Below, piece after piece: positions 1 to 59,316 of a DNA stretch of 64,000 bases. The DNA lies in the NCBI GenBank assembly GCA_963556145.1, contig OY744467.1:1116001-1180000 (forward strand), read 5' to 3'. This DNA comes from Hygrocybe punicea. Taxonomy: Eukaryota; Basidiomycota; Agaricomycetes; Agaricales; Hygrophoraceae. Numbering within the stretch: position 1 is the stretch's first letter; every line of letters begins with the position of its first letter. The notes beneath the pieces are model-generated. The model was not told the origin of the DNA, ran no database searches, and saw only the letters and a list, made by a program, of their open reading frames with translations. The position numbers were made by a program, and so were the translations under genes.

Positions 1-540
1 AGACATGGCTCAGCCAAGAGGGACAATTCCCACTCCGAGTGGGCCAGCCAATCTCGGCCGACCAATATCTTTCTCCAGGGGAGATGGCTTGGCCGAGGGG
101 TCTATGTTCTGAGGGACATGAGTTGGCCGAAGCAGGGGGATATATTGGCCAATGGGTCTGGATATTTTGGCTGGCCATGGGAGATGGATTGGCCCACCGG
201 TCTGGGTATCTTGGCAGGCCATGGAACATGGATTGGCCGACAGCCCAGGGTAATTTGGCTGGCCATGAAAGGTGGATTGGCCGACGTGTCTGGGTATTTC
301 GGTTGGCCATGGAACATGGATTGGCCGATGGGTCTGGGTATTTCAGCTGGCCATGGAACATGGATTGGCCGACGGGTCTCGGTATGTCGGCTGGCCATGA
401 AAGGTGGATTGGCCGACAGGTCTGGGTATTTTGGCTGGCCATGGAACATGGATTGGCTGACGGGTCTGGGTATGTCGGCTGGCCATGAAAGGTGGATTGG
501 CCAACAGGTCTGGGTATTTCGGTTGGCCATGGATTGGCCA
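1..540 (+). repeat. Left terminal inverted repeat with 44-bp minisatellite
   Basis: Positions 1-165 are unique sequence matching the reverse complement of about 20,165-20,327 with few differences. From about 165 to 540 follow some eight 44-bp units built around GGCCATGGAACATGGATTGG. The units vary at a few fixed positions, for instance a GAC/GAT step and a short TCTGGGTAT block. The unit length is not a multiple of three, so long open frames appear in several frames; these are not genes. Confidence 0.85.
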
Positions 541-690
541 ATCCTGGTTAGTATACCGTCAGCCATGGGACATGGGTTGGCAAATACCATATATTGGCTT
601 GCTGGTCATTCTTGGCAGATGGTTATGGTCCAGTTGGTTAAAAATATATTACTTTCTTCTGTTCAACTATATCTTCTCTAATAATATGTA

Positions 691-3600
691 TTACTCCATC
701 TTGTTGGAAAAGGCAGTTTCTGCTTGTGCTATCATATTCCTCCACATTACCATTTGTTTTTCCGCATAACAGATGTGCCCCCTCAGTCCCAGACCAACTT
801 TGTCACGACGTGCTTCCCATTGCACCTTCTGGTGTTGCAGCCAACGAATCACGTTACCCATTTCTGACTTGACGCTTTGCAATTCTTCAGACCACCGATC
901 ATATCTGGCCTTGCCACGGAGCCAGTTTACACGATACACTGTATAGCAGTAAGATCTTCCATGAATTGCTGTAGCAGAACCATTCACCTTCTTGCATCCA
1001 ATCGTTGTCACCAGTATTATTCCTTTCTTTCCTCCGCCAGATCCAGGGCAGCTTGTGACTCCTCTAGCCCACTCTATTCTCCTCAAGCATATCACCACTC
1101 ATCTTGATATCCTCCTGCCTCAGCACTTTGAAACGATCCAAAATGTCTGCATTCCCCCCCTAGATTGACCAATGCTCGACGAGCCTGCCTGTAGCTGGTG
1201 GCATATTTACCAACTTTTTGCTGGATGGCATGTATGTCGTCCCATGCTCGAGTCTTCTTCTTCTGGCTGTTTGCTCCACGAACAGAGGTTCGAAAGATTA
1301 CCATTTTCTCACCCAGTGTCATCCTCAAGTTTTCCAAACAATCGTTTGCTTGGCCCACCCTGAGTTCCACCTCCTGAGCCACCAAAATTTCCAAACCCAG
1401 CCGAGCACATTCCTCCACTCCTAAGGTCGATGGCATTGTGAGTCGGCAATTTTCTGGCCATTCTGCAACATGGTCATCATCTTCTTCATCTACCCCACCC
1501 TCCTCATCCACATCCACAATCCAGTCATCAGCAGTGGGATCATAATTGACCAGATTACACTCATCCACATCTTCACCAAGTATTCCTTGTATTTTTCTGT
1601 GGAACGAGTCGATCCGAGACTGCAGTCTAATTCGCTGATCCTCCAGATTTGCCTTGTCTGTGAAACTGCCCGTTTTTTGAACAGCACGAGCCGTTGTTTT
1701 CAGAGTATTCCTGTAGGGTAAACAAATGTCAAAGAGACGATCGATGAGAATGAGGATACATCCTACTGTGCTTGTTCTATGTTTATTCCTTCATTTAAGA
1801 TGGTCACCCGACCAGCCATTACATCTTTGGGATTCCCTGTCATCAGTCTCAACCTGATCTCAGCCTGCGATGGTGCTGGTGAAACATCATTACCGTGTCC
1901 AAAACATCAACACTTTACAAGACAAACCTTTCTCCATTCTGACGTCGAATACCCTCAAGTAGTCACCACGGAAATCCATTGCCCTTCTTTCTTCTTCCTT
2001 CCACTCCGCCAGCACTTGCTCATCCACAGTTTCGGAAAGCTCCTCAAAGGCTGCCTTCATTTCCTGCATTCCATCTACTGCTTTATCATATCGTTTCAAC
2101 AAAGACCGAACTGTGTGACAGCTATGGTGATGATATGTATTGATGACATGCCTATGAATCACCTACCCATTCCTACCAACTTCTTCCAATTCGAATCCCT
2201 CATAAGGTCATCCAAGATCTCACGTCGTTGGGATTTTGACATGAAACGAATAAAACTGGAAATCTTGTTGATGATAGCCCACAGTGTCTCCAAAATTTCA
2301 CCATCCTGCTGACCAGCACCACGAACGAAGTTGAGACTGAATAGGGCAAAACACTTGGCAACATGTGCACCAAGATGAAACTTGCCCACAGCCCCAATGA
2401 TCTCAAGCGCCTCAGGGAGAGTGAGGTGGTCGGAATCGGAAACCCTTTTAGCAAAATTGATCAGCCAACTGCAGGCAATATCATATTCCACCAGTGCTTG
2501 GGTGATACCACTGTGGCACAGCCTATTGAGAGCGTTGCATATCGAATAATCAACGTTCATGTGTCTGGTGCAGACTCTTTAATAAATTTGTCACGATTCA
2601 TAGCTCAAAATACATGACTAACCGTTCACCCTTCTGGAAGTCGACGACACTGTGGGGTACAAAGCAACCATGCTTGGCACATGCACATGCACCGATGCCA
2701 GTAGCGTATAAGTTATGATGATTGGCATTTGCTTGGTTGACGGCCTTGTGATTGGAGCACTGTGACCTCTGATACATGATCATTGATTTAGCATTCACGA
2801 AATTCACAATTCGATAAATACCTCTTTGGACTCCAGGGAAGCTGCCAGATGAGCACGATAAGGTGCATCCTCAACCATATAGCCTTGTCCATCGATAAGC
2901 CCAACGTCGTCATCAGGCTTCCGCATGTTAATCTGCTCAGCTTTGAAATTGCCATCGACGACGATGCTGGGCCTGTAAAGCCACCTGTTTCCCTGTTTGG
3001 TGTGGAACTACATGAAAGCTGATCAGAATGACCCACTGATGCGGTCTATCCATCCAGTTCTGCGGAAGATTTATCCCTGGCTGGGGACATGCAGGGCAAA
3101 ACAATGCCAGATCGCCATTACCAGGCTCCCTCTCAGTGTCATGCCCAAAGCCGAATCGTTTCTTGAGGTGCAAGTATCGCCACTGTCTTGACACCCTCAT
3201 TAGCTCACGATAACGATCCTGAACACCATAACTCAGTACTCCGTTCTGTATGCACAATGTAACAAAACAACTAGTATATCACGAACCGGCAATGTATCTG
3301 GAAATGCATTGGAAGACAGTCTCCTTAACTTGTTATAAAAGTTGTTTGCAGACATTTTGCACTCCATCGAATCAATGTAGAAATGATCCAGGAGCTGGAA
3401 AGTGAATGCTGACGACGGCCGTTTTGCTGTTGCAGGATACAAATGCATTTGAAGTAGTTGAATATCTCGAGTGGGGGAATCTGGGCAGGAGCACCATTGG
3501 ATTCGACGTCGGTAAATTCCATTCGTATGAGTGACAGTTATGATATCTTCCTCGGCGTGAACTGCCAAAGCCAGATCCAAATCGTCCTCCTCACCACCAC

Positions 3601-4255
3601 CTGACATAAGAACATCATGCAGATATGTATCTTCGACAGATGGCTGGGGGCCATCTTTTCTGTATGACGGACAATCGCCTCCACCATGGCCAAGACGCAT
3701 GACCAGGCCAATCGTATTAAGGTCATGTTTCAGGAAACATCTGCCGTTCCATATCTCAATTCTGTGGAATGGATTATGAATGTGTGTCTGCAAACAACAA
3801 CGCTGGCAGAACGAAGGGCAACCATAGCAATCAGGGCAACGAATGGTGATATCGGCCATCAGACATGACTGGCATGTAACATCGGAAGGGGGGGCCTCAG
3901 ATGATAAGAGTTCGGAGAGGTATTGCTTGTGAATCGCTTTCCAGGCTTCCATTTCATCATTCTGTGTCTAATTGACATGCAATCAAAATCAAGTCGTACA
4001 GATAATAGTTGTGTCAACCTTTCCACGCTTATTGCGATGTCTCCTTGTCTGAGGGTCCTCCTCTTCCACAAACGACGTTGAGGGCAAGGGAAGATCTTCA
4101 CTCCTGTGTGATTGTTTTACAGGACTTGGCGGACGAATAACTGGACGAGCCTTGACTGTCTTTCCACCTCGTTTCTTTTCCACCACCATAAATTCAACCT
4201 CTCTGGCAAATTCCTTTTTTTTTCCCGACCGGGAAATGACTTTTGATTTCGGCAT
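691..4255 (-). pseudogene. KDZ family transposase, frameshifted
   Basis: Starts at a methionine at 4255 (MPKSKVIS) and runs leftward through about ten exons. Exon 2 (3287-3967) holds the cysteine cluster that precedes KDZ transposases (CxxC and H-rich spacing, then a PFHRIEIW block). The catalytic core follows: VVDGNFK for the first acid, CACAKHG, then VEYDIACSW for the second acid and DGEILETLWA for the glutamate. The C-terminal part has the LRVGQAND helix region and ends at 691. The DDE-type residues are present. Two lesions break the frame: a seven-base C run at 1154-1160 (G7 on the coding strand) that shifts frame, and an in-frame TAG at 1064-1066 just before the PWIWRRK block. The junction near 3,010-3,040 would need a 25-base intron and is unresolved. 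It would mobilise the element between the inverted repeats. Confidence 0.88.
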
Positions 4256-4398
4256 GGATGAACAATAGTTAGATGAGTGTGGGAATAGTGAGAAAATGAC
4301 ACGCCTTATAAAGACCAATACACGAGGCAAAACACATGGATAATAATAAAGATTATTACGTCGCTTGATATACAAATATATTTGAGGACAGGAAAATG

Positions 4399-6222
4399 TT
4401 ACAAATCCGATGAACTGTCAGAATCTGATACCATAGTTGGGGCCTCAAACCAACCAGGGACCAATTTAACATCACCGGATGAACCCTCCTTTCCTTCCAA
4501 TACAACCCTTTCCAGCGCATCACCCTGAATGCAATTACGAACAGCTTGCCTGCGCAACGCCCCCTGGAGTTCCTGACGGAGCGTGGGTATCCGCCAGTCT
4601 TGCCATGGATCTTTGGCAGCTCTGATAGCAATCTCGTCACCCAGCATGATGTTCATCATTTCTATTGGGTTTTCTAAGAAGATTCGGAGGAAGTGCAGCA
4701 TGTAGATGCCGCAATCATCAAAATTCGGCTGGACAGGTACCTGAAAACAAACGTTCAATTCATTCGCAACACGGAGGTTAGACGTGGTTCACCTTGGGGG
4801 TGATTCTCTTGATAGGTGCCAGCTTTTTCACCTGTCTGGTGTTCTTCGCAATGCAGGCTAGCCACGCATGAACCAGGGATATATCTTTTTGATGGTGTGC
4901 TGGGGGCAGTGAATTGAGAACAAATGTTACACTAACCGACGATGAGTAAGTTCAATGCAAAGCTGAAATGGATAACTACGTGTGTAGTCCATCAGGAGGA
5001 TTTTCTAACAAACATGCAGCAGGATTTGCCACGATAATCAAATACCAGTGGTCACTGATGGTGAAGTGAGATGTTGCCTTCACAAAAACTGACTACACTC
5101 ACCCAGTGGGCACAGGAAAGACCAAGTATGGGAGCGAAAATATGTCGATTGCCTTCGTCCACCTCTTCAAACTCTTCACCCCGTTCTTCCTATGACCAGA
5201 TTTAGAGGAAATGAAGTTATATGAACAACCAAGCAACGTGCACCTCAGTTTCTCCATGAAAAAAGTAATGAATATGTGTATGTTTGCCGGCAACTCCGGC
5301 TGATGGATTGCTGCTTGCTGCAGAGCGTAACTGAAACAGGGAATAAGCTACTGCACTGGAGGGTTGAAATGTACCTACTGGGTACCGAAATTAATCAGTT
5401 CGTCATCTAGCCAATCCTTTTCCAAACGTTGATATGACATCCACGGAACAGCACCCCGCTCTGAGTATTTTGCAACAGTACACGTGTTTTCAAACCTAGA
5501 ACACCTGAGGTGAGTGACGGGCCTGGCCATGGCAATGTGATGTACATGACCGCATCTGGCCTTTCATTCAACTGCAAAAATTGGCCATTGGTTTCGATGT
5601 CATTTCTGTTGAAGTAGAGATTAGTTGTGGTATGATGAATGTGTGATACTCACTGTAAATACTTGATGCTACTTTCGCCCAGTGTACTGGTGAGAAAACT
5701 GAGCAAATCCGCATACATATCTGATGTCCAGGATGCATGCTCGTTGTCGAAATAAATGCCAATTTGATGTTTTGAAACAATCTCTGAGTATCAATTGCAG
5801 TCACATGTAAGCTTATTGAAATGGTGGCGTACCATTGTTCTCTCTGCCTAAAAACACACATGTGGCTTTATCCACATGCCGAGAAATAAGCACATACAAT
5901 ACCAAGCCGCGTATCTGCTCTTCATTTGGTTTGGTGGCCTACAAAATTACTTGAATATCAAGGGTGGGCTGTTGAAGACTGACAATCACCTGGCAACTGA
6001 CAACATCGTGTTCCACCAATAGTTGCATGGTCACAGAGCTGTCCTCTGTCAAAATACAACAAACACTTGTATACGACAGTGAGTGATGATTAGGATGCTG
6101 AACATGATGACTTACCATGATCCTTTGCATTCAAACTCGACAGATGTGGTCCCTTCCGGAGATTTGTGGTAGGTGTTTCCACCAGAGACGGTGAAAAGGA
6201 CGGGGAGTAGGAGAGATGGCAT
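4399..6222 (-). CDS. Ulp1-like (C48) cysteine peptidase of the KDZ element
   Basis: Multi-exon gene read leftward. Visible blocks in order: WLDDELINFG (the usual Ulp1 entry motif), an RWTKAIDIF helix, DHWYLIIV with the catalytic histidine, FVLNSLPP where the family normally has Asp-Ser-Leu, and the last exon (4399-4740) with VPVQPNFDDCGIYML giving the glutamine and the catalytic cysteine. Introns are about 42-78 bp, and phases agree across every junction followed. The start at 6222 (MPSLLLPV) is the weakest part; an upstream start is possible. The family cleaves SUMO or SUMO-like modifiers. In Zisupton-type elements such a domain accompanies the transposase. The Asp-to-Asn change may alter the His-Asp-Cys triad. 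Confidence 0.75.
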
Positions 6223-7640
6223 ATTCGATTGATGTGAGGTTATGCACGTGATGGTTGAGAACAAAGAGAGCTGTTCAATCATGTGATGCCGGGTCACATG
6301 TAATGTGGTCCCGTGACATCACACATGCGTGATGTCACGCCGCTGTTGGACACATTTAACGCAGTAGGGAAATTGGATAGCAAAGAATAGGTCATCGCAG
6401 CGCTGCAGAAATTGCACATCCTCTATGAGATTGTCCATTCCCCACGTAGCCATTATTCTATGTTTTCTAGTAGATATGATACCCTAAAATGGGCATTTGT
6501 TTTTATTTGGTCAGAAATCACCTTATTCCATCACATCCTGAGTCGCACCATCAACGTTGGCCAAGGTAATTTCTCTTGATTCCAACACACTACCATCTTG
6601 CTGCATGGCAATAATCACTAGTACGGCAGCAAATGACAGCGCCGTTGTTTCCTTGGTAGGGCGCTGTACCAGGGAAATGTGGAACGCCGCATTTACGGTG
6701 GTTCTTGTTGACGTGCGGCCTGGTAAAGCTGCTGCTTTTCATGACATTGAATGCCTCCCCCAGTGTGTTTACAACATTACACTGACCCCACTTTTGATTG
6801 TTTAGGATGTGCCTGAAATCTATTCGTGTCTTTTCATGCGGCCGTCACCGAACAAGAACAATATTCTGTCCGATGGCTCGGCATGATGCGATCGGAAGAT
6901 GCAGGCCATGCACGAACGCCGTTCCTGAAAGGAGGCTGGCCACACATGTTTGGTGTGGACGAAAATGTTCGTATGCGTATGGGATATTTCGTTCACCTAG
7001 CCACTAGGTTTGTTGCAGGTGTGCTACATCCCTTGATGGTCGGTGAAACCTGTGAACGTTAATTTTCACCAACCGCCCACATATACAGTTGAAATCAAGG
7101 CAAAGGTGTTCATTATTCGGCAGCGACACTGTAATTAAACGTCTGTGCAACAAAGTGCCATTCACAAGCTTCCTGCCCAGAGCATGAATTTCAAATGTAA
7201 CAATATACAGTACTGACGTTTCCGTAACTACGGGCCTTTGCAACACTGCCATTTACGACTTTCCTAGCCAGTATATGAATGCACACAACAACGAGTCACC
7301 ATCCAAACTTGGCCACATCATGTGAGTCAAGTCATTTCACGTGATGAAAACCAACCACGTTTGTCACGTGAACAAATACAACCAATCACAAGTGCTGATT
7401 GAATTCATTTTCCCATCCTTCGTTGTTTTCCCCCTCATCATTGTACATCCCACACTGCGAGATTGTTGTACCGGGCAACAATCTCGCATTATGGGATGCC
7501 ACGCACTTTAGGTTACATATCATTCTTCTACCCGAATGGTGAGTGGTTTGTTATGTCTCTGCTGAATGCCATTCACTTAGAATATTCGTAAGTGACTGAT
7601 TGTTTGTCACTGCGATTGATCTTCTACAGCTTCCTGCCAA
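6223..7640. other. No convincing gene; short plus-strand open frames
   Basis: Short open frames at 6557-6805 and 6826-7062 (plus) can be joined through a possible intron near 6764-6805, but the products show no motif I know. The rest is low in coding signal. This stretch separates the leftward peptidase from the rightward cargo genes and may hold promoters. Confidence 0.4.
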
Positions 7641-7659
7641 GGTTTCCACATGCATTAAT

Positions 7660-9060
7660 TGTGGAATCAGTACGTGCCAAACCGATGGTGGCCGGTCCTC
7701 GGACATGGGTGCTTGCTGCTGCCAGTCAACCTGGAATGAAAAGGTGGGTGAATCTCACCGATTTGCTTGCCAGGCAACCTCCTTGCAACAGGCCTGGCGG
7801 TATACCCGTTTGCATCCAAGGTGTGTGTCTTCTCATTTTAATATTGCGCTTTTAGTAGTGATTCACTTTCATTACAGCTGCTCTTTCCATCATGTTTTGT
7901 GGCGGTGAATAGGCTTACTGACAATTTTACTGCATTCAGATAAGTTATCCATGAGCGCGAGTTGTGGCATCAGTGCGTGCCAAACCGGTGGTGGCAGGTC
8001 CTCAGACATGGGTGCTTGCTGCCGCCGGTCAACCTGGAATGAAAGGGCGGGTGAATCCCCCTGATTTCCTTGCCGGGCAACCTCCTTGCAGCGGGCCTGG
8101 CGGTATTCCTGGCTACAACCGAGGTGTGTGTCTTCTCATTTTAATATTGCGCTTTTAGTAGTGATTCACTTTCATTACAGCTGCTCTTTCCATCATGTTT
8201 TGTGGCGGTGAATAGGCTTGCTGACAATTTTACTTATTTCAGACCACTCCTTCATAGCGCAAGTTGTGGCATCAGTGCGTGCCAAACCGGTGGTGGCAGG
8301 TCCTCAGACATGGGCGCTTGCTGCCGCCGGTCAACCTGGAATGAAAGGGTGGGTGAATCCCCCTGATTTCCTTGCCAGGCAATCTCCTTGCAGCGGGCCT
8401 GGCGGTATACCCGTTTACACCCAAGGTGTGTGTCTTCTCATTTTAATATTGCGCTTTTAGTAGTGATTCACTTTCATTACAGCTGCTCTTTCCATCATGT
8501 TTTGTGGCGGTGAATAGGCTTGCTGACAATTTTACTTATTTCAGACCACTCCTTCATAGCGCAAGTTGTGGCATCAGTGCGTGCCAAACCGGTGGTGGCA
8601 GGTCCTCAGACATGGGCGCTTGCTGCCGCCGGTCAACCTGGAATGAAAGGGCGGGTGAATCCCCCTGATTTCCTTGCCGGGCAACCTCCTTGCAGCGGGC
8701 CTGGCAGTATTCCTGGCTACAACCGAGGTGTGTGTCTGCTCATTTTAATATTACCCATGTTGACAGGTTGACTCACAGGTGATATATGTCGTCTTATAGT
8801 AGTGATTCACTTTCATTACAGCTGCTCTGTCCATCATGTTTTGTCGCGGCGAATAGGCTTGCTGACAATTTTACTTATTTCAGACCACTCCTTCATAGCG
8901 CAAGTTGTGGCATCAGTGCGTGCCAAACCGGTGGTGGCCCATCCTCAGAAATGGGCGCTTGCCGCTGCCGGTCAACCTGGAATGAAAGGGCGGGTGAATC
9001 CCCCTGATTTCCTTACCAGGCAACCTCCCTGTAGTGGGCCTGGTGGCCTTGTTGACGTCA
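7660..9060 (+). repeat. Five-copy 302-bp tandem array with exon-like units
   Basis: Five direct copies. GTGTGTGTCTTCTC landmarks fall at 7821, 8124, 8426 and 8728, so the period is 302-303 bp; the fifth copy ends differently near 9045. Each unit looks like an exon with intron: an acceptor such as TTATTTCAG, then 183 bases (for example 8243-8425) ending in a GTGTGT donor. One frame stays open in each copy and begins VASVRAKPVV. The length of 183 is 61 codons, so copies could be added or lost without changing frame. I do not recognise the peptide; it may instead be a non-coding array upstream of the TET/JBP gene. Confidence 0.7.
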
Positions 9061-9379
9061 AGAAAAGTAAGTCTTGCTGTACTTTTGACTATTCTATCAT
9101 TCACCAAACGGCACAGGTATCAATCAGCTTATAAATGTGCATGGTCTGTATATGTATATACACTGAATCTGCTCGGCATTGCCATTTTTTGTGCTATATT
9201 GTGTGTTATATCATAGTTGGTCGTTCTTGTGACATGGCGAAATTGCTGTATGCAGCAAATTATTAAATGCTAAAAGTTCTAACCATAATAACACCTTATT
9301 AAATTATACCGCCTCGAGGCCACCATGTGTACTAAAACTGACCTAACCAATTCTCAACCAATCTCACTTCTCAACCATT

Positions 9380-10940
9380 ATGTACGCCGACAGAATCCCC
9401 TCAAAGAATGCACAATCCAAGGCAATGGAAGCCTCGCTTTCCGTCAACATGAAAACAAAGGATTGTGGTCTCGCTCCAAATCTAAAGAAAGATATGTGGA
9501 CGAGGCTGAGAAGAATCCTCTCAAACACTACATCGTATTATAGGAAGTCGGGCATGTGCCCTCCGAAGTCTCCTGTAGAGGAATGCAAACGGCTGAGGTC
9601 AGATCCATGCTGCTTCAATGTCATATCTTACATGTTTTGTAGATCACGTTTGATGATGCTGAGGGATCAGCTTCCAGTTAGCAAGGTCTTGGGAGATTCG
9701 GCCCCAGATTGCGAAACATTCTCCAAGTCGGACATGGTCTCAGAATCCGAACTGGAGAGGGTTCTCCTCACTGTGGCAGCCGCGATTTTGAACCCTAGTA
9801 CGTTGCTGCCATGAAAGTCGGCATATTTAGACTGACATCTTGCCTCAAAGTAATTGTGCCCTTGGATGCGAATAGACTGGCAAATCGAGTGAAGAATATC
9901 AAGGACACTTCGGATGCTGACAATGAAAACCTACTCAGGTTTTTTCAGGAGATTCACATCGGACATGTGAATGAACCAGCTACAGTAATCGACACGTGTG
10001 GTTCAATTTTGGTCTGGTATCTACCTGATGTTGTAACTCCAAGACGTATTGTGAGTCACTTGCCCCCCGGAAATGTGGTTTTTGACAGTACCCACTGCGA
10101 CACAGGAGGAATTGAATGTCAGTGCTGAAATAATAACCGAAATTCTGGAAGAATCCTATTCGGAGTCCCTCAAAAAACTTGAGAAAGGGAAAGATCCGCA
10201 ATGGAGGAAAGATCCAAACATTTTCTTTCCACCTCCAAACCCACGATTTCACCCAGGATCAGTGGATTTCGCCGCAGCATGGTTTGCTCAGGGTAGAGAG
10301 GTAACACCTTTAGTTAGTCGTCTGTTTTACATGAGCTGACCGCCTGTTTTTTCAGCGACTTACCAATAGGTTGATCACATCGACAACTCTTCGAACAACT
10401 GAAGCCACCATGTGGATGGCTGCAATCGAACCCAGCGAGCTGATCTTCAACGCAATTACTGCGTTAACCCATCAGTCATTGTACACAGCTGGCCTTCTGG
10501 CTGTGACGAAAATCCAGGACGGCAAAACGATCGAGAACGTGGAAACACATGAAAATGCTAAGGAGTGGACATCTGTTTACACTGGAATCGCCGTTATCGT
10601 TAACAGGATTACAACTCGACACAGAGATGCTGGAGGGTGTCCAGAATGGTATGATTTGCTGGCGAGTTGTGGGACACATACGAACGCGGAACTAGCCATC
10701 CCTGAGTTGGATGCTACGTTCTCTTATTCGCCAGGAACCGTCATCGAAATTTGTGGCAAGGTTCTCAGTCACAGTGTAGGCAGATGGGAGGGCGGTGAAA
10801 GAATATGCATGGCGCATTATATGCGAAACATGGTACATGACCGTCTCAACATTGACAAGCCCACCTGGAGCCGACACAATGTGTTTGCAAGGGAGATGAA
10901 TGCCGAGTTTCGGGCATCACAGGAATGGAGATGGAATTAG
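9380..10940 (+). CDS. TET/JBP-family 2-oxoglutarate/Fe(II) dioxygenase
   Basis: Exons: up to 9797, 9851-10045, 10089-10300 and 10356-10940; phases agree across all three introns (53, 43 and 55 bp). The N-terminal part has EPATVIDTCGSILVWYLP, typical of fungal members. The last exon carries the double-stranded beta-helix core: TTRHRDAGG with the HxD iron ligands (His codon at 10620), a YSPGTVIEICG strand, VLSHSV with the distal histidine, and GERICMAHYMR, whose arginine would hold 2-oxoglutarate. The family oxidises 5-methylcytosine or thymine in DNA; activity here is inferred. The 5' end is uncertain: an ATG at 9325 sits in a perfect GCCACCATG context but in another frame and would need one more intron. 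An optional 45-base in-frame intron may lie near 9599-9643. No lesion was found. Confidence 0.85.
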
Positions 10941-11332
10941 CTATTGTGCCAAGGGAGATATCATCCTAATGTAAAAGTACGACGGCTACCGTTGCATGCT
11001 TTGTACGACTGTAGTCAGAAACCTCTGTGGAACTAAATCTCGTTATCCTCATTCACGGAAGACGAAGGCCTATGAGTTTCAACTAACAGATAGCTAGACA
11101 GTGTTAGACAGTGTTCGGAGAATTTCCATGGCTTTACATTGATAACTCTGTCACATTGACAACTCAGTCAATTCGAAATGTGTACTTAAATGTGGCAATT
11201 CACGTGATGTGGTCACACGTGATCACAGTAAACCGTGACGCGTCATTTTTTTTTTACCTTCTGCACCCTTATCATCTAGCCTCAGCCTCTCTTGAATTGC
11301 TCTCAGATACACTCGAATTGAACATTTTGGCA
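10941..11332. promoter_or_regulatory. Intergenic gap between TET/JBP and JmjC genes
   Basis: About 390 bases without a gene. It contains the 3' region of the dioxygenase gene and presumably the promoter of the JmjC gene. A CACGTGATGTGGTCACACGTGATCAC stretch near 11,200-11,226 repeats the CACGTG/CACGTGA core, an E-box-like palindrome. No other signal is clear. Confidence 0.35.
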
Positions 11333-14300
11333 ATGTCGTCATCAGCAAGCACCTCGGCGCTGTCAATCGCTTCTCTACATGCGTCTGTAATGTCTGGCAG
11401 TAATTTCCGAAGCATGAATGTGTTCCAGGACTTCCCGTGGGTCAATGGCATGCCTCTTGCTGAAGATTCACTTGAGAAGGCTATCGTAACCTTAATTGGC
11501 AATCAGTCTGCTCTAGGAAACACACCGTCCACCTTGGCTGTGATGGTGCATCACATCTCCCACCTTGTAACATTGACGGTCAACTTGTCTGCTAGGCCCT
11601 GGCAAAGCAATTGGATTATGTGAATCCCACAGGTGAAATCTCACGTAAAGCCCAAACCATCCAAGAATACCTCTCTGCTGATGGCTCTGCTATGCGTGAT
11701 GTGGCAAGGTGGACTACTGTGTACCAGAATGACCTCCTGGTAGCGGCTCACTCAATCCTTCGCTATACCCTGCTCGATAAGCTCATGGACGCTGTTGGGT
11801 TGCCTCGTCATCCAAGTTTCAAAGTAATTCGGAGATCAGCGAAACCAGAGATGAGCGAGAAGTTGACCAAGGTGAGTTCACCATTCACATTTGGGCAGAC
11901 GTTTTAAGTTGACGTTTGCACACCGTCTTGAAGCTCTACAAATTTCTGAGAGACTGGAGTAAGCCGATCACGAAGCTTCGTATGACATGCAAAAGTCTAT
12001 TAATCACGCAACAAGATCAAGAAGTGGTGGGTGTTTCAGCCGTGGCAGTGCCGCAGAAAGTGGTGTCCAGTATGGACACCATCCCTATCTTTGCAGTCGC
12101 TCTCCCAGCACACTTGACACCAGCCCAAAAAGAAGTAGAAATGAACATCCGGATCCTTTACCGTGCATCTGTCAACCTCGAATCCTCCGACGTCAACCAG
12201 ATCCTCCTCAATCTAGAGCTTCTTGCATTCTCATTCACGTGGTTTGGCCAGGTATGTGACGTATGTCCTATATGAAACGTGTGTCAGATTTTGTACAAAA
12301 ACAGGGCAACTCATATGTAGACTGCGACTTCACAACATGGGTGGAGAAGCTACAGAGGTTGGGATTGCATTACAATCACATTACGCCTGCCGCAAATAAA
12401 TAATTCACATGGTTTCAGGATGGCAAAGAGTGTTGATCTACCGTTGCAAGACTCATTTGTCAATGCCCTCACCACCAAGTCTTTCGGAGGTTTAATGTAT
12501 GATCGGATGAGAAATCTATTCCACCTAAGCCTCACACTGTCACCCATAATTACTCTTCTCCCACGACGTTTCAATCATGAATCTCATGCACGGCCATCTC
12601 TCATGGCAGTGAGTCCATTATTTGTGCCAACTTGGACGTAGTTGACATAAGGAAAAGATCACGTTTGCCTTGGGCAATGAAAGGCCTCCATTCCTTGCCA
12701 AAACGGAGAGGGCGCTTTGGAGGGCCATTACAAGAATATGTTTAGGATCTTCGGCGATGCAGGAGCTGAATGTATTCCTCCAAGAATACGATTTGTTGGA
12801 GGACAGCGTCCAGGGAACAGAACAGGACTTCAGTTGGTTTTGTTTTGACAGTACGCCGCCTGTCTCTACATTTATCGCTGGGACTGACAACAGATGTTGC
12901 AAGATAAGGAAGTGGATGACCTGACCAACTCTGCTAGTCAGCTTACGGTGGCAACGAAACAAAATGTTCCAACAGACCCCAAGGCAAAGAATGACAAGCC
13001 TGCGTCAGGCAACCCTCTGTCCAGCGATGATGAACCGCTTCAATTGAAATTAACAAGGAAGAAGAGGGGTGGACCATCGAAGGAGCTTGCTTCAGGTGGA
13101 CAGAGCTCCATGTTGACCCGAAGCCAGGCCAAAATGTTGGACAAGGTTGGGGACTCTTCGAAAGGCAAGGAGAAGCAGAAGGCAGAGAAAGTCCAGAAGG
13201 AAGAGAAAGTCGTGGTTGCGCCGGGGAGGTCCTATCGGAGGAAGAAAAGATCCACTCGCTGGTCGACAAGAAGTTATCCCAAGTCCAAGAAACGTGATGA
13301 TCTTGAGGATGAAGATGACGATGATGACGAGGATGACTATAAGAAAGCGCCAGAGAAAGTGAACGTGATCATCGACCTTACCGGAGATGTAAGTGATTCA
13401 AGAACGTGTCATTTGTCATGAATGAATATTTTGATAGGATTATGGGGAACCTGATTTGCTCAGCCGTCCAGCACCCATTGTGTGTCTTTTGTTGTTCGAT
13501 AACGTGCCACCCCACTGATGATTCATAAAGCGAGCATCAGAGGGTGTTCATCTCACGATGTATGATGGTGACACTGTACATGAACCTGTTGAACATGTGC
13601 ACTATTCACCATCCGTCGTTGTACGTTGATGTCTGATTTTTGTACCGTTTGATTGTTAACTGGTAAGCACGATACAGGCAAAAGTGGAACATGCATTGTT
13701 GCGGGAAACATATGAAATGATCCGATCCAGTTACATTGATGGGGTTCCTCCACATCGGCTGCCCAGTGCAAGAGAACAAATGTATGATCCTCATGCATCA
13801 TGTGTGTTCGTGGTGGAATGGAACATCTTCAAGTCGATGGATGCTGCAACAATTCAAGGAATCTTTCGTCATCGTCACATCCTCGTGCTCAATGCCCCTG
13901 TAGAAACAGTGGAGTTTGATAGGGAAGGTTTGGAGACATTGGGGTCTTTGTCGTCCATTCGTTCAGTGCAAGGTCCGTTTCCGGAGCGATGTCTGGGCAT
14001 AGCGACTAAAGTGCCTTTGTTAGTTGCTGAATTGCGATTGGTGCCTAATATCGAGAATATGAACAAACCTGGCACATTGGAGACATTATATCAGCTTGCG
14101 CTTGACCCTGACAACGAAAGGGTTTTCAATTTCCTTGACCTTCCCATGGGTCATATGACGTTGGACCCACCTCCAAAATTCCGGTGAGCAACCTTGTTTC
14201 GAAGATCAAACACGAGATTTACCTGTCTATTCGTGAAAAGGTCCTTTTCATCATCTGAGGTTGCTTGGCACGAAACCCGCGGCCGACCGGGGTTTGTCCG

Positions 14301-16478
14301 CGAGCAGCCTTTAAATGACGATTTGGCTTGGGGAACGGCAGCGACAGCTTGAGCCATTTCTTGGACACATGTAGATGATGATGGCTTTGGCACGGTGGTT
14401 ATTGTCAGGACTGGCGCAAAGTACTGGGTCCTCATGAGGCCTCGAAGGGATGCCGAATGGGATCGCAAGGCGGGCAATCTTGCGACTAACAAGGCCTATC
14501 CTCAGGAGTGGGAGCCGAGAAAACATGGTGGGAAAGGCTTGTGGGAAGCAGAAGGATTACTGCTCACAAAGGGTTCAGTGCTGTAAGTGGGAATATATTT
14601 CGTGACAACTCGGATGTGTGCTGAAACACACAGTTACATGAGGCCGTGCACCCCACATTATGTCCTCGGTGTGGAGCACTCCATTGTGAATGGGCGTCAT
14701 CTCTATGCGACGTCAACTATACGGGATACCTGTTATGGGATTATCCATACTTTCGTGATGAGTCATACCATCACAAACGCGGAGCATAATGTGACACGTA
14801 CATTTCTGCGCCGACTTCTCACCATGTGGATGGAGTACTTCACGGGGAACCACGAATCATCATGTGAGCTACTTTGGGCGAGGTTTACAAATTCCTGAAG
14901 ATTAAAATGCTCACTGCACAGCTACTGTCTTCACCAAGTCTCATATGCCCAAGATCGAAACCGAAGACGGCTTCCTCGACCTTGTGATTGTGGGAAACCT
15001 GATCGAGCTTGCGGATATCATCAACAGGAAGTTCTACACCCATACCATATCGGCTGACATTCATGAGGAACAGAATATTGCACAATGCAGATATAGACGT
15101 TTCCAAATCTGGTTTGCGGAACATTTTGTTGTCTTCATGGAAGACCACTGGATCAGCCCCTCTTACATTTTCCAACGAAGTCTTTTGGAACTATCTGCTG
15201 CAATTGTTGGGTATAAATGGGACAAGGATGGGGTTGTGAAGGCACCAGCACATTGCACAGCCAAAGCTGTTGAGTCAGCGGTCCGCCGACATTTTCAAAA
15301 CGATTGGCCAGATTTGGTGCCAAAGCTGAATGAGCTGCTTCAGATCCCACCATCGGAATTCTTCTGGACCGGCCCCAAAATACACATTCAGACCCGTCCA
15401 GTGGAACCCATCAGTCCCATTCTTGTTGAATGCTTAGATTTTCCACCTCATCCAATTCTGCTCGTCAACACAACTACCGGTGAAGGCGAGGTACAGGATG
15501 ACACAGATACACAGGAAAAGGCGAAAGACAATGAGCGCGACAAAGGGGAGGGCACCGATGGTGAGGAAGAGGCGGATGATCCATCTAGGAAGGTGGGAGA
15601 TTTAGTGGATGCAGCTGGCGAAGAGGTAGCCACAGAGGAAAACCAGGATCCACCTGCAACGGTTTGATGTGCAAACGACATGGCTGTGGACACTGAGAGG
15701 GAAGAGGATCCACCTGTAACGGTGGGAAATTCAGCCGACGTGGCTGGGGAAGATGCGGGAGAAGAAATGGACGTCGCTGGCCCAAATGAGGAGGATCCAC
15801 CTGAGCAGGTGGGAAATTCAAATGACGCAGCTTCGTGGAATGAGGACAGTCTAATCATGCCCCTGGGTATGTCAAATGAGGAAGATGTAGACCGTGACGA
15901 GGGGAAGCAGCAGGAAAAGAAGGGGGGGGAGGAGGGCGCGGTGCAGGGCAAGGGGGTGCAGGCAGGGGAGGTGCAGGAGGAGGGGGAGGAGGACGAGGAG
16001 GGGGAGGAGGAGGAGGAGGGGGAGGAGGAGGAGGAGGGGGAGGAGGAGGAGGAGGGGGAGGAGGAGGAGGACAGGGAGCTGCAGGACGAGGAGGGGGAGC
16101 TGCAGGAGGAGGGGGAGGAGGAGGAGGAGGGGGAGGAGGGGGAGCTGCAGGAAGAGGAGGAGGAGACGGATGGGGATGGGGCAGAGGAGGAGGACGAAGA
16201 GGAGGAGGATCGAAATGAGATGGTGGGGAAGTTAAATGCCCAGAGTGTGGACAGTGACGAGGGAGAGGATGACGATCAAATGGACATCTCATCTGGCAGT
16301 GATGCAGTGTATAATGATTTCGATGGATCACCCCAACCCCCGACACCCCCTGTGAAACGTCCTCGGAGGGAAGACTCGGGTACGATAAATTGCCTCAACA
16401 GCTTGTATATACACTGATATGATCATTCACACAGATTCACCAATACGTTCCACAGACCTGAAACGCCGTCGTAAGTAG
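11333..16478 (+). pseudogene. JmjC-type protein with acidic tail, two in-frame stops
   Basis: Fourteen exons with consistent phase: 11333-11539, 11596-11871, 11934-12251, 12305-12357, 12419-12608, 12658-12850, 12904-13388, 13438-13479, 13543-13620, 13678-14183, 14241-14582, 14634-14863, 14922-16379 and 16435-16478, about 1,473 codons. Order: helical N-terminal region; basic/acidic linker with LTRSQAKML and a SUMO-interaction-like VIIDLTGD; JmjC core with SWTHVDDDGFG (HxD ligands), RTGAKYWVL, YMRPCTPHYVL and a GRH histidine; then a glutamate-rich tail and a basic KRRRK end. JmjC proteins are 2-oxoglutarate oxygenases, classically histone demethylases. An in-frame TGA at 14350-14352 lies just before the HxD motif, where relatives have glycine. 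A second TGA at 15665-15667 replaces a GGA seen in a neighbouring copy of the same peptide. The upstream exons could be a separate gene. Confidence 0.72.
15900..16215 (+). repeat. GAG/GGA-rich low-complexity tract coding polyglutamate
   Basis: Long purine-only GAG/GGA repeats inside exon 13 of the JmjC gene, encoding runs of Glu with Gly and a recurring GELQEE variant. The other frames read as Arg/Gly- or Pro-rich shadows. Such tracts easily change length. Confidence 0.85.
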
Positions 16479-16616
16479 CTGGGAGGATCATATCATTCAT
16501 ACTGCTTCCTACTCATGTATATTCCTGACATTGCAATGCATCATCTGCCTCCTCTGCTGTTAAATGTATTCCTTGTAATAAACACCGAACCATTGAGAGG
16601 CATGGGTAGAGGAAAA

Positions 16617-16700
16617 TGTTATGTCACGTTGGGCCTTGCACAAGTGACATGTCACAAGTGTTATGTCACGTTGGGCCTTGCACAAATGACATGTCACAAG
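16617..16700 (+). repeat. 42-bp tandem duplication
   Basis: Two adjacent copies of a 42-bp unit beginning TGTTATGTCACGTTGGGCCT, differing at one base (CACAAG/CACAAA). They lie between the convergent ends of the JmjC and HMG-like genes. Confidence 0.85.
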
Positions 16701-16842
16701 TATTATATATTTATGATTTATTCCACATATCACCTTTTTAGGCACATTCAACAAAGCCTATTTCCGCCGTATAGAACGTCGCAAGGGTTGACTGCTTGTG
16801 GTAATGCAAATTGTGAGCTGCATCCCCACAAACGGGATAGCT

Positions 16843-19212
16843 TTACCTCACATTTTTACCAGCATTTCTTGAGCTGTCCAACTTCCCTGGGCGTCTTTGT
16901 TGTGCAACATCACTCTCCTGTACCTTGTTTGTCTCCCTCTCCCGCGCCTCTCGTGCCTCCCTCTCCTGGGCATCTCGTGCCTCTTTCTTCCTAGACTCCT
17001 CCTGGCCCTTTCATGCGTCCCTCTCCTGTGCCTCTCGTGCCTCCCGTTCCGCCATCTCCCGCGCCTCTCGTGCCTCCCTGTCCTGTGCCTCTCGTGCCTC
17101 GCATGCCTCCCCTTCAGCCCTCTCCTGCGCCTCTCGTGCCACCCTCTCCTGGGCGTCTCGTGCCTCTTTCTTCCTGGCCTCCTCCAGGCCCTTTCGTGCA
17201 TCCCTCTCCTGTGCCTCTCGTGCCTCCCGTTCCGCCCTCTCCCGCGCCTCTCGTGCCTCCCTGTCCTGTGCGTCTCGTGCCTCGCGTGCCTCCCCTTCAG
17301 CCCTCTCCCACGCCTCTCGTGCCTCCCTCTCCTGGGCCTCTCGCGTCTCCCGCTCTTGTACTTCTTGTAACTGTCTTGCCATCTCTCGGTTCTGTGCTGC
17401 TACCCGTTCTGCTTGCTCCTTTTGCTTTGCTTGTCTCTCTGTCTTCTTTTTCATCCACAGAAGCTTCAACGTCGATGTATCGTCATCCATCTCGCTGTCG
17501 CCACCACGTCCATCAAAGCTACCACTACTTGCACTCTCGTCACTCTAACTATCGTCGCCCTCTTCGCTACTGACTGCTTTCTGTTTTCCCTTGCTGGACT
17601 TGGCGGCATTTTCTGTTTTCTTCTTGGGGTGGACTGTCTTTAATGCTGGAACATTCGATTTGGATCTGCGAGGTCCGATAGCATTCGATTGTGCAGCTCC
17701 CATAGCACTCGATTGTGCAGCTCCGGCAGGAATAGATGTCGTTTCCCTACTGGAGTTTGATGGCGCCAAACAATCGGTCCTGGCCAAAGCAGCAGCAGCA
17801 TGGAACTTCTTCTTTTTTTGCACGAATGCATTTGGTGCTCGCTGGTCGGTCTTCAGGACGGTTTTAAATCGGAATGGTTTTTTACTGAGTTTCTGCCGTT
17901 GCAACCAAAATTGGTGGACGGTCCGAAGTTCATCGAGTTTCATTTTCCACAGTTCCTGTAGTTCTACGTGAGAGGGAAAGTAGATGTCCTCGATGTATTG
18001 GTTTCGATTTTGTCCAATTTTTCCCCATGGAACAGCGATGACGCTGTTGTTGCACATCTGACCTTCAAATGAATATGAGTACAGTAAGCTTGGCCAACGT
18101 CGAGGTACGTACGATATGACATGGTCATCAGTGATCTAAACATGTTTCTTACATCGACCAATGACATAGTTGACACATTCGGTACCATAGGAAAACCGTC
18201 CTCATCGATCTCAAGCTTGAACGGCAGGCTTTTGTCATATCTGGTAGTTGGACCACCATCATCGTCTTCACTGTCGGTCTTCACTCCATCGGATTCATCT
18301 GGAACACATTACATGGGAAAGATGGAACAATGGCTAATCGTACCGTCATGATTAAAAAGGGACCCCAAATGTTCATCCCATTTGGTCCAAATGTCATCCC
18401 CGTTATTTTTGAAGACGCCGATGAACTTCTTGTGTACCGGGGCCGGTGTCTCGAACCTCACAGGAAGGGAAGATAAGTACGTGATTGACACAAAGCAGGA
18501 ATCGACCCACTTTCCTTTGGTTACAGTCCCATCTTCGTCTTCATATCCCACCAACATGAATATTTTTACTCCCATCTGCTCATCCATGTCCTTCATAAAC
18601 TTCATCGCCGTCTTACCGAAATCTTTTGCTGCTCGGCTGGATAAGGTAGAAGATTAGCATCATGCAGACGAAAGAAGATTATTAGTACCGTCGTTTGACT
18701 TCCAAGGGTGGACCTTGCTGGTTCCAGGCGTCGGCAAGAGCTTCAAATTCTTGTTTTTTCTCTTCGGTCAAGGAACCGTAAATATCACTCCACGCTTTGC
18801 CATAGTGCTTGATGTAGCCGGGCTTTCCTCCGGTTTCTCCAGACAGCTCCACCGTCCTAGCGTCGATTTCCTTGGTCATCTTTTCTCTTGTAACCAACCT
18901 TGCATTCCACTTCTTTGTATATTTCGGAGCATCCTCAGTGTCGCTCTCCAATTTTGACCGATGATTGTGGTACCAGGTTTGAATTTTCTGTATTCATGCT
19001 ATAATGCTGTTAGGCTTATCTGAAGGGTAGTATTAGAATATACAGACCTGTTGCATATTTGGGGGCCATTGTGTGTTGGTTTGTTGTGCCGATTTTTTTA
19101 AAAGTTTCCTGATCCCTTTCAGGACACGAATACAATCTTCACCAGTGGATCTCCTAAAATCAGGATAACCGTCCTCAAGGATCTTAGTAAATTCTGGGGT
19201 GATCCACTTCAT
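16843..19212 (-). pseudogene. HMG-like / coiled-coil protein of the KDZ element, two stops
   Basis: Five exons, phase-consistent: 19048-19212, 18689-18987, 18344-18636, 18113-18298 and 16843-18062 (721 codons). The start MKWITPEF leads to a helix ending IQTWYHNHRSK. Next comes an HMG-box-like segment around IYGSLTEEKKQEFEALADAW and WNQQGPP, of a kind common in agaricomycete transposon-linked proteins. Exon 5 is basic (KKKK, KGKQK) and ends in a long E/A/R heptad-like coiled coil built from duplicated coding repeats. In-frame stops: TAG at 17545-17547 and TGA at 17011-17013. The second sits where the neighbouring repeat copy has CGA, a C-to-T change at a CpG. A 486-residue product lacking the coiled coil is still possible. 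Probable role: DNA binding or bending; inferred. Confidence 0.65.
16960..17350 (-). repeat. 183-bp direct duplication in coiled-coil exon
   Basis: The block beginning CTCTTTCTTCCT at 16981 recurs at 17164, an offset of 183 bases or 61 codons. Within it, shorter 21-24 bp steps encode alternating REAREA/QERxARE heptads. The phase-preserving length means the coiled coil can grow without frame loss. Confidence 0.75.
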
Positions 19213-19584
19213 TTAGGCAAAAACTGAGGAGAATGAAGGCAAATGTCGTTGTCTGGAACAAAGGCAGAACGTCGTTGTCCGGAACAATGGAAGAATGCCT
19301 CGTGGTGAACATGAGGTGATGACAAATCACGTGATTGATGGCAACAAATAGCAATGTGGATTACAAGTAGATGACTCAGGGGATTGCAAGTCGGTGCAGG
19401 ACGTGATTAGGAGAATATGATGAATTGTGAATATTGATAAATTCCAGAACACAAGGATAGAGGAGCAAGTACCAAATCTGTGGCACATGGCAAGGGGTGG
19501 GTAAGAGTCCAAAGATGTAAGGTGGGTATGTTCAGAGCAGGCTGAATGAACAGATACAACCTACCTGTTGCATTTGTGGCAACA
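19213..19584. other. Subterminal gap of the KDZ element
   Basis: About 370 bases between the HMG-like gene start and the right inverted repeat. No coding sequence is supported; it should contain the promoter of the HMG-like gene. A near-duplicated pair of short blocks (ACGTCGTTGTCCGGAACAA and TGTCGTTGTCTGGAACAA) lies at about 19,243-19,290. Confidence 0.5.
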
Positions 19585-20327
19585 CTGTTCCATGGCCAGC
19601 CAAAATACCCAGACCCGTCGGCCAATCCACGTTCCATGGCCAGCCAAGATACGTAGTCCGGTCGGCCAATCCATGTTCCATGGCCAGCTGAAATACCCAG
19701 ACCCATCGGCCAATCCACGTTCCATGGCCAGCCGATATACCCAGCCAGGTCGGCCAATCCATGTTCCATGGCCAGCCAAAATACCCAGACCCGTCGGCCA
19801 ATCCACGTTCCATGGCCAGCCAAAATACCCAGACCCGTCGGCCAATCCATGTTCCATGGCCAGCCAAAATACCCAGCCAGGTCGGCCAATCCACGTTCCA
19901 TGGCCAGCCGAAATACCCAGCCAGGTCGGCCAATCCATGTTCCATGGCCAGCCCAAATACCCAGACCCGTCGGCCAATCCACGTTCCATGGCCAGCCAAG
20001 ATACGTAGTCCAGTCGGCCAATCCATGTTCCATGGCCAGCCAAAATACCCAGACCCGTCGGCCAATCCACGTTCCATGGCCAGCCGATATACCCAGCCAG
20101 GTCGGCCAATCCATGTTCCATGGCCAGCCACAATACCCAGCCAGGTCGGCCAATCCACATTCCATGGCCAGCCGATATATCCCTCTGCTTCGGCCAACCC
20201 ATGCTTCTCCGAACATGGAACCCTCGGCCAAGCCATCTGCCCTGGAGAAAGATATTGGTCGGCCGAGATAAGCCAGCCCACTTGGAGTGGGAATTGTCCA
20301 TCTCGGCTGACCCATGTATCATGGAAA
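19585..20327 (-). repeat. Right terminal inverted repeat with 44-bp minisatellite
   Basis: Inverted copy of the left end. About 13 units of 44 bp run from about 19,590 to 20,165, then the unique outer part follows to about 20,327. The right array has roughly five units more than the left. Every unit contains an NcoI-like CCATGG and a GATTGGCC block, which could serve as repeated protein-binding sites; that is inference. Confidence 0.85.
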
Positions 20328-20335
20328 AGATATGC

Positions 20336-20798
20336 TGAAAGGGCTCATGGACTTGACTTTCTAATGGTGACAACAGTACAAGTTGACTCACACGACAGGT
20401 TGGTTTTTCATCTTCGTCCACTTTCAACATGACTTCCTCTCCAACAACGTCGGTAAATGCCTTGGCTACAACGGCTGAGCTAAAGCGTTCACCGCGTCGC
20501 CTTTATTGTCATTGAAGATCCGCTGTCCCAACTTCTGATAGATATCAAGGGCGTTCTCGATACTCATCTTCTTGGCAAGAAGTAACGCAATTAAGCCACC
20601 AGTAGAAGTGCCGCAAATTAAATCGAAGAACTCGTGAGGATAGAGTTGGGCAGGCTCCGTGCCAGGTTGCGCCAAGGTGAGGATGTGCTGAAGAATAAGA
20701 AGAGAGCCGTAACCTCGGTAGCCACCACCGTCGAGGCAAAGCACTTTGAGAGGTCTGCTAGGCTGTAAGGCATCTGGCATGTCGGAACTTGTCAGCAT
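20336..20798 (-). pseudogene. Patatin-like phospholipase, truncated by the KDZ element
   Basis: Starts at a methionine at 20798. It shows the patatin oxyanion-hole motif LDGGGYRGYG about 20 residues in and the nucleophile motif GTSTGG about 35 residues later, so the N-terminal half of the catalytic domain is present. Near 20,475-20,490 one base seems missing: the downstream frame (SSAVVAKAFTDVV) continues the family pattern. The frame then runs to a likely donor near 20,395 and meets the right inverted repeat at about 20,335. The catalytic Asp half is absent and may lie left of the window, beyond the element. Family role: acyl hydrolysis of phospholipids. Confidence 0.7.
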
Positions 20799-28868: not shown

Positions 28869-29683
28869 ATTACAGCCGTTTGCATTATTTATAGCAATTA
28901 AACAAAATTTTGTTCAATAATCAATAAGAAAAGATGGACTTATTATAATAAACAAAATTTCTGTGCTCTGTCTTGTATCTCATGAAATATTGCATGGATT
29001 GACATGGTGATAGAGGGAAAGTTGTACTATTTTTGAAGGGCTATCAGGACCTGTAATTACATTTGGACAATATTGAATTGTGGATGAAATTAAAGGTAAA
29101 CTAGTATGTTTTGACACTCAAAATGATATTGTCAAATTATGACATCAAATGAACTCCTATGGGGAAGATTGTAGGGAGAAACTTGTTTAGTTTTTCAAGG
29201 GCTAGAAGTACATATATTGTGTTTTTCTTTATTTTTCTCCTTTGAGTCAATATTTATGATTCTTGTCATGTTTCTGGCCTAATGCAGACAAACATAGTAT
29301 AGATGTAATATTGGCTGAAAGGAGAAAAATAAGGAAAAACACAATATATGTACTTCTAGCCCTTGAAAAACTAAACAAGTTTCTCCCTACAATCTTCCCC
29401 TTAGGAGTTCATTTGATGTCATAATTTGACAATATCATTTTGAGTGTCAAAAAGTACTAGTTTACCTTTAATTTCATCCACAACTTACTACACACTCTCA
29501 ATATTGTCCAAATCTAATTACAGGGCCTGATAGCCCTTCAAAAATAGTACAACTTTCCCTTTATCACCATGTCAATCCATGCAATATTTCATGAGATACA
29601 AGACAGAGCACAGAAAATTTGTCCAAGTCCATCTTTCCTTATTGAACAAAATTCTGTGCATAAACAATGCAAATGGCTGTAAT
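28869..29683. mobile_element. Foldback element with arms of about 385 bp
   Basis: The sequence from ATTACAGCCGTTTGCATT (28,869) to about 29,257 returns as reverse complement from about 29,307 to AATGCAAATGGCTGTAAT (29,683), with scattered mismatches and small gaps. Only about 50 bases separate the arms, so a transcript would form a long hairpin. It is AT-rich and holds no coding sequence. It resembles a MITE or foldback transposon; the target duplication could not be fixed by eye. Confidence 0.85.
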
Positions 29684-52698: not shown

Positions 52699-52835
52699 TG
52701 TTGGATTTCACATGTGTAGATTACATGATCGGGACACAATCGGGACACATGATGTTGTTTATCGTATATCAATGTCACACAGACTATTCTGCTACCTCAG
52801 TCGTTCTGTTCATGGCTGAGGTATGTATTCCTCAC

Positions 52836-59194: not shown

Positions 59195-59316
59195 TTTTTG
59201 GGTTGTCTCCTGGCCAGGAGTTTGTTTTATACCGTAGGCCCTCCGCTTTGAACTCCGCTGCGGTTCTCCCTTTGTTCCACAGGCGTCTCAAGGGTTCGAC
59301 GCTAAGGGGGAGATAC

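Follow-up and report, generated by a model that had tools for sequence, protein, structure and literature searches.

A recently active multi-copy KDZ transposon of Hygrocybe punicea carries a TET/JBP dioxygenase gene, conserved partner genes and a CpG scar

Introduction

TET/JBP dioxygenase genes are reportedly linked to KDZ transposases in a 2014 study by Iyer et al., whose abstract is said to mention additional proteins, including one with a divergent HMG domain. TET-bearing KDZ elements, and the reading of them as anti-silencing devices, are already published, with complete TET-carrying (TET+) Kyakuja, Zisupton and other transposons described in the main text of Kojima (2025; PMC12730594). 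Here we analyze a 64,000-nucleotide stretch of the Hygrocybe punicea genome (the window; C33:1116001-1180000, contig OY744467.1 of assembly GCA_963556145.1), which holds at its left edge a KDZ element with a TET gene among its cargo. An earlier reading of the window from its letters (the sequence-only reading) had proposed such a unit and considered the presence of cargo and both ends in one unit unusual, a claim that does not stand beside the elements published in 2025.

As Kyakuja is presented in the main text of PMC12730594, the element resembles the TET+ Kyakuja of Agaricomycetes in its KDZ transposase, its AG-type TET protein with equivalents of residues G331 and D337, its 7-bp target duplication, and a left end that starts with CA. 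However, its termini are CA...TC rather than the CA..TG of Kyakuja, and it has 172-bp inverted ends at 87% identity, whereas Kyakuja has no terminal inverted repeats (PMC12730594, main text). Membership in Kyakuja was therefore rejected, and we do not file the element there. Its 7-bp target duplication also differs from the 8-bp duplication given for Zisupton in the same text.

Results and Discussion

An exact element of 20,373 bp in many copies

The element measures 20,373 bp and spans C33:1115974-1136346, or window positions -26 to 20346, with its first 27 bp in the 10 kb read to the left of the window. It starts with CACACC, ends with GGGCTC at 20346, and is flanked on both sides by the 7-bp target duplication ATGGACT. 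The proposal that two inverted copies of an end sequence enclose a single unit of about 20 kb was borne out, with these ends forming terminal inverted repeats of 172 bp at 87% identity. Minisatellite arrays of 44-bp units sit just inside both inverted ends, and the number of units in the left array varies among the five copies counted. The interior also contains 302-bp tandem repeats (3.6 copies) that had been overlooked.

Six other end copies were examined, four of which are complete in the stretch read; together with the window copy this makes five complete copies, and the 7-bp duplication is perfect in each. Among 14 further end pairs, compared as 36-base cuts, nine duplications are perfect, one of them once its cut is shifted by a base, and one matches at 6/7 positions, differing by a CpG transition. 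The target duplication that had been suggested as a check is accordingly perfect in 14 of all 19 end pairs, present at 6/7 in one, and absent from four. Perfect duplications also flank the diverged copy F1 and L031, a 1.29-kb derivative reduced to its two ends, and the termini are CA...TC wherever both ends were located.

The genome (92.2 Mb in 42 contigs) was searched with five probes (left end, KDZ, TET, JmjC-like gene, and HMG-like gene), with 40 places taken for each and clustered at a gap limit of 32 kb; for the left end these were 40 near-full matches, with shifted array matches excluded. The 63 resulting clusters comprise 23 that hold all five probes in one order, 7 that lack just the left end, 13 in which no probe but the left end matched, and 20 with other partial sets, so that 30 clusters run from the transposase to the HMG-like gene in order. 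Scoring covered 40 of the 58-319 candidates of each probe, which makes these counts lower bounds. Clusters reach lengths of up to 56 kb, and the long ones therefore contain further insertions. With the left end and the genes together in 23 ordered clusters, the refuting condition set by the sequence-only reading, that other copies of the ends never enclose these genes together, fails. The genome contains 122 TET matches, 96 of them over the family cut-off, and 38 of these 96 belong to the family of the window element, taking as its members 39 of 40 places and excluding one of half length. Non-CpG differences between six copies amount to 0.21-0.37%. The window element is best explained as a KDZ DNA transposon of ~20.4 kb that has been active recently and exists in many copies.

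Four short loci (L031, L032, L033, and L034, with 3.5-5 kb read) match the ends of the element but lack its genes, and three of them also carry a piece resembling element bases 8932-9074 from the 302-bp repeats. Separately, four TET matches of near-equal score (C8:73763, C1:9470614, C6:18251, and C36:402853), three of them <75 kb from a contig end, perhaps represent a subtelomeric TET family.

Six genes between the ends

Genes were modeled with a simple splice-aware model and checked against element copies (Table 1). The transposase and peptidase genes point leftward, the TET, G4, and JmjC-like genes rightward, and the HMG-like gene leftward. In the spliced models, the transposase contains the KDZ domain (PF18758, E 4.3e-47) that defines its group and the KDZ-associated cysteine cluster CxC2 (PF18803, E 2e-24), and the peptidase contains a C48 domain (Peptidase_C48, PF02902, E 3.7e-23). 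Read by eye against the catalytic His/Asp/Gln/Cys motif, the modeled peptidase has the stretches GDHW and VPVQPNFDDCG, with an Asn (in LNSL) at what we take to be the place of the Asp.

The spliced TET model matches Tet_JBP with E 3.6e-13, and residues 237-441 of its 465 align with E 7.3e-25 to CcTET of Coprinopsis cinerea (7vpn, 7w5p, 8jkk), the only solved relative among the matches listed. This similarity lies in the 9.4-10.9 kb interval to which a TET/JBP gene with intact HxD, distal His, and Arg had been assigned, and the alignment confirms those residues: the HxD motif reads HRD (His codon 10620-10622, Asp codon 10626-10628), the distal His, the Arg, and the ligands match, and Gly and Asp occupy the places of G331 and D337 (positions counted by hand), so that the HxD, the distal His, and the G331 and D337 equivalents of an AG-type TET are present. 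In CcTET, G331 and D337 have been tied to action on N6-methyladenine and 5-methylcytosine (5mC) (PMC12730594, main text). A difference from CcTET is that the TET gene described here is part of a complete element with several genes.

Of the five gene labels first proposed, KDZ, TET, and C48 are secured by these domain matches, but JmjC remains below threshold and HMG matches no family. For the HMG-like protein, no HMG family was listed at E<=10, in a search where the HMMER filters drop most weak matches, and its structure model is all-helical with a mean predicted local distance difference test score (pLDDT) of 49. A sixth gene, G4, had been overlooked and has no Pfam match.

An initial splice model of the JmjC-like gene passed over the HxD motif and was replaced. 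The HxD His lies at 14368-14370 and a second His at 14656-14658. The window copy has an in-frame TGA at 14350-14352. The whole protein, read from copy E6, has no Pfam match at E<=1, and its core has a sub-threshold match to PF08007 at E 0.1. All JmjC profiles stay below threshold, with JmjC_2 (PF08007) the best at E 0.1 and 0.039. A profile built from two family members found 38 relatives, of which 24 were aligned with both members; one named relative comes from Athelia psychrophila. By eye, the HxD is kept in 25/25 covering rows and the second His in 5/5, with some rows being near-duplicates. Among the 26 aligned rows, one matches PF08007 at 0.089 and seven match PF13356 about as weakly. In a PDB profile search the top match is an unrelated peroxidase, and the second and third, at E 1.1, are YxbC-type hydroxylases. 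JmjC_2-type hydroxylases (PF08007; 1vrb, a putative asparaginyl hydroxylase, and 7zcc, YxbC) are the top oxygenase in three weak searches, and the HxD...H motif order is as expected for them, with all matches below threshold (E 0.1, 0.039, and 1.1). Profile comparison with host JmjC frames gave a probability of 0.4%, the structure model has a pLDDT of 32, and PDB sequence and profile searches and NCBIfam left the JmjC identity unsettled.

The genome contains 14 matches to the JmjC profile PF02373, none inside the element copies listed. Eight of them, three of which were read, lie in open frames of 135-155 aa that look like a multi-copy family (C6:6935847, C33:3365276, C1:3151502, C39:2700450, C33:6170417, C34:1022331, C7:5769979, and C34:1592273); one is ~22 kb from a TET match, and the list of TET matches has none near the other seven.

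Table 1. Features of the KDZ element, in window positions.
Feature	Position	Strand	Remarks
Whole KDZ element	1..20346	.	Delimited by ends, target duplication, inverted repeats, and copies
Left terminal inverted repeat (part)	1..149	+	Outermost 27 bp outside window
Left subterminal array	144..533	+	44-bp units, 8.9 copies
KDZ transposase gene	691..4255	-	11 exons modeled; 1003 aa; CxC2 and KDZ domains
Ulp1-like C48 peptidase gene	4399..5938	-	N-terminal exons uncertain, may extend further right
302-bp tandem repeats	7659..8752	.	3.6 copies, between divergent peptidase and TET genes
AG-type TET/JBP dioxygenase gene	9380..10940	+	4 exons; 465 aa; catalytic exon 10356-10940
G4	11333..13518	+	~620 aa; conserved in second family
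JmjC-like gene (JmjC_2-type?)	13558..16478	+	3' part from first model only
HMG-like gene (label unproven)	17011..19212	-	Last exon 17011-17518 from model only, repeat-rich
Right subterminal array	19587..20173	-	44-bp units, 13.3 copies
Right terminal inverted repeat	20171..20346	-	Ends GGGCTC
Right copy of target duplication	20347..20353	.	ATGGACT; left copy outside window

A second family with the same gene order, and constraint on the cargo

Another, diverged TET+ KDZ element, which also has inverted arrays, lies at C40:1036000-1061000 and was read as the one representative of a second family; neither its precise ends nor a target duplication could be found. It has matches to the KDZ (E 1.8e-156), JmjC-like (E 1.8e-110), TET (E 4.5e-35), HMG-like (E 8.5e-34), and G4 (E 6.8e-25) genes in the same order as in the window element, with the HMG-like and TET genes inverted. 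A Ulp1-like gene was not found in this element (best E 0.89). The transposases of the two families are 32-57% identical per segment.

The ratio of nonsynonymous to synonymous substitution rates (dN/dS) was estimated between F1, which is one copy and partly decayed, and the majority sequence of the window family (family I), built from six copies or, for the HMG-like gene, from five. The values are 0.25 for KDZ, 0.28 for Ulp1, 0.41 for TET, 0.30 for G4, 0.31 for the JmjC-like gene, and 0.16 for the HMG-like gene, and the bootstrap upper limits are <1 for all six genes when all codons are used, with the constraint weakest for TET. When CpG-type codons are dropped, the upper limits of the other five genes stay <0.6. 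Synonymous divergence (dS) is 0.080-0.132 in TET, G4, and the JmjC-like gene compared with 0.205-0.259 in KDZ, Ulp1, and the HMG-like gene, and this lower dS suggests that the central TET-G4-JmjC-like block may have been exchanged between subfamilies.

Copies differ mainly by CpG transitions

An alignment of ~15.3 kb from six copies (five in its last block) shows 418 singleton changes, of which 292 are CpG transitions. The transition rate is 0.244 per CpG base compared with 0.0083 at other C/G and 0.0034 at A/T. The modeled genes of the six copies contain 13 premature stops (at 12 sites, one shared by two copies), and 12 of the 13 are CGA to TGA, including the stop in the JmjC-like gene of the window copy. 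The ratio of the CpG rate to that at other C/G is 29.4 in the element compared with 4.7 in a control (801 bp, six copies) from a neighboring retrotransposon, which we take from its motifs to be Copia-like; a wider 3.2-kb control from the same retrotransposon gives 2.3 and is partly misaligned. The element has an observed/expected CpG of 0.66, compared with 0.76 for the remainder of the window, but such depletion by itself says little because 4-kb pieces of that remainder range from 0.26 to 1.17. Within the end arrays, CpG transitions do not dominate the unit-to-unit differences, at 6/36 in the left and 8/42 in the right. The host genome contains five matches to the DNA-methylase domain PF00145. 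We read the excess of CpG transitions, beside few other differences, as the trace of copies that arose in a recent burst and later became methylated at CpG. Because the copies differ mainly by CpG transitions, the element probably carries 5mC, the expected substrate of its own TET enzyme.

A candidate anti-silencing role for the cargo

We propose, with a probability of about 0.72, that this recently active KDZ transposon uses its TET enzyme in trans to oxidize 5mC on element DNA and so delay silencing, with the other cargo assisting on chromatin. In this model, the transposase most likely recognizes both the 172-bp inverted repeats and the 44-bp arrays inside them, and insertion yields the 7-bp target duplication seen in the genome. 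The host would then methylate the element at CpG, as the CpG-biased decay suggests, and TET would most likely oxidize this 5mC while the remaining cargo proteins aid the element on chromatin. Protection would be incomplete, with genes lost mainly through CGA-to-TGA changes, and live families would probably persist through proteins shared between copies, which we infer because none of the six copies reads open in every gene. Anti-silencing is the likely function of the cargo, incomplete at best. The sequence-only reading had also suggested a chromatin toolkit that could let the element escape silencing or mark its own ends. One mobile unit with a KDZ transposase, a TET with intact catalytic residues, and a C48 peptidase holds; the JmjC and HMG labels lack statistical support, and the second family yielded no peptidase. 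Escape fits the constraint and the CpG scar, but is partial at best because copies decay by CpG transitions.

Several observations weigh against this proposal. The scar itself implies that copies get methylated, which an escape from silencing should prevent. Each of the six copies has at least one gene that is not open, in a scoring that excluded the peptidase N-terminus and two 3' ends and with the HMG-like gene outside the E6 stretch. Constraint on TET alone is weak, since its dN/dS without CpG-type codons is 0.51 with a 95% range of 0.25-1.39 that reaches above 1. F1, which is outside the JmjC-like alignment, has an Arg at the second His of that protein. The Copia-like control cannot isolate an effect of TET on the CpG rate, because that retrotransposon is older and copies via RNA. 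Finally, a duplication is missing from 4 of the 19 end pairs, in one case because the expected place does not hold the left end.

The strongest competing explanation, which we hold to be possible although clearly less probable, is that TET marks DNA instead of clearing it, so that oxidized cytosines would persist at the ends or promoter repeats and serve as a signal for the transposase or for transcription. Many CpG sites remain in the element, which would suit such a role. Oxidized cytosine occurs around Kyakuja and other transposable elements in Coprinopsis, mainly together with 5mC (main text of PMC12730594, citing others), and is enriched in transposable element classes of Laccaria and Coprinopsis (PMC8889193, in the part of its text consulted). 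However, CpG density exceeds that of the element interior in just one array, the right one (5.11 compared with 3.80 per 100 bp; left array 3.59), and no reader protein was identified.

An active process resembling repeat-induced point mutation (RIP), in place of passive deamination of methylated CpG, is an unlikely source of the decay. The very strong C-to-T excess in a repeat would fit it, as would the internal TGA in 22 of the 122 genome TET matches (counted by hand, irrespective of the origin of the stops). However, the four NCG contexts behave alike (ACG 0.281, CCG 0.257, GCG 0.218, and TCG, the lowest, 0.215), and the other twelve contexts lie at 0.002-0.013 with no comparable CpA effect, unlike the TCG and CpA patterns of Pucciniomycotina and Neurospora (PMC12730594, main text). 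RIP was set aside on these rates. That the cargo was caught once and is carried along without function for the element is very improbable: TET has the highest dN/dS of the six genes, with a range above 1 without CpG-type codons, and many copies have stops, but the same genes stand in the same order in two families with transposases at 32-57% identity, dN/dS over all codons is 0.16-0.41, and the JmjC-like HxD persists in all 25 covering rows (by eye, some of them close relatives).

A more far-reaching reading, which we regard as doubtful, is a conserved chromatin-editing kit of two oxygenases, in which TET would act on methylated CpG of the element and a JmjC_2-like hydroxylase on a protein (chromatin or the transposase). 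G4 and the HMG-like protein would be their DNA-binding partners, and the window family would add a deSUMOylase. The kit would be inherited as an ordered block, with its TET-G4-JmjC part exchanged between subfamilies. If confirmed, a second oxygenase conserved beside TET would point to a transposon that edits DNA and protein marks in a coordinated way.

The family bears on why transposons carry enzymes of the DNA-demethylation type. It offers many near-identical copies with internal signs of CpG methylation, partner genes common to a second family, and one gene seemingly absent there, and anti-silencing can be tested within one genome by comparing copies with open and broken TET genes. The main text of PMC12730594 does not mention HMG, SUMO, JmjC, Ulp1, or peptidase. 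In the literature searched, the G4 and JmjC-like partners, the peptidase, and a CpG scar on a TET carrier were not found, nor, as judged by titles and abstract openings, was any further publication that describes JmjC or HMG genes in TET+ KDZ elements. The HMG-like gene is probably not new, since the abstract of Iyer et al. reportedly mentions a divergent HMG domain, and the JmjC-like, G4, and Ulp1-like genes may also appear in that study. The conserved partner genes and the CpG scar seem to be new.

Neighboring features

Immediately next to the right end of the element, at window 20347-20798 on the minus strand, is a frame that matches patatin-like phospholipases (PF01734, E 2.4e-12). By eye, this frame seems to continue up to the element, and the insertion may therefore have broken a patatin-like gene. 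The Copia-like retrotransposon lies directly left of the target duplication (locus L009 on C33, last 600 bases and 8200-9000), and the 801-bp probe taken from it matches 15 places in the genome. Farther along the window, nested inverted repeats (184 bp at 95% and 125 bp at 97%) occupy 28952-29622, and identical 300-bp direct repeats at 52834-53133 and 59315-59614, 6.5 kb apart, are possibly the long terminal repeats of a young retrotransposon.

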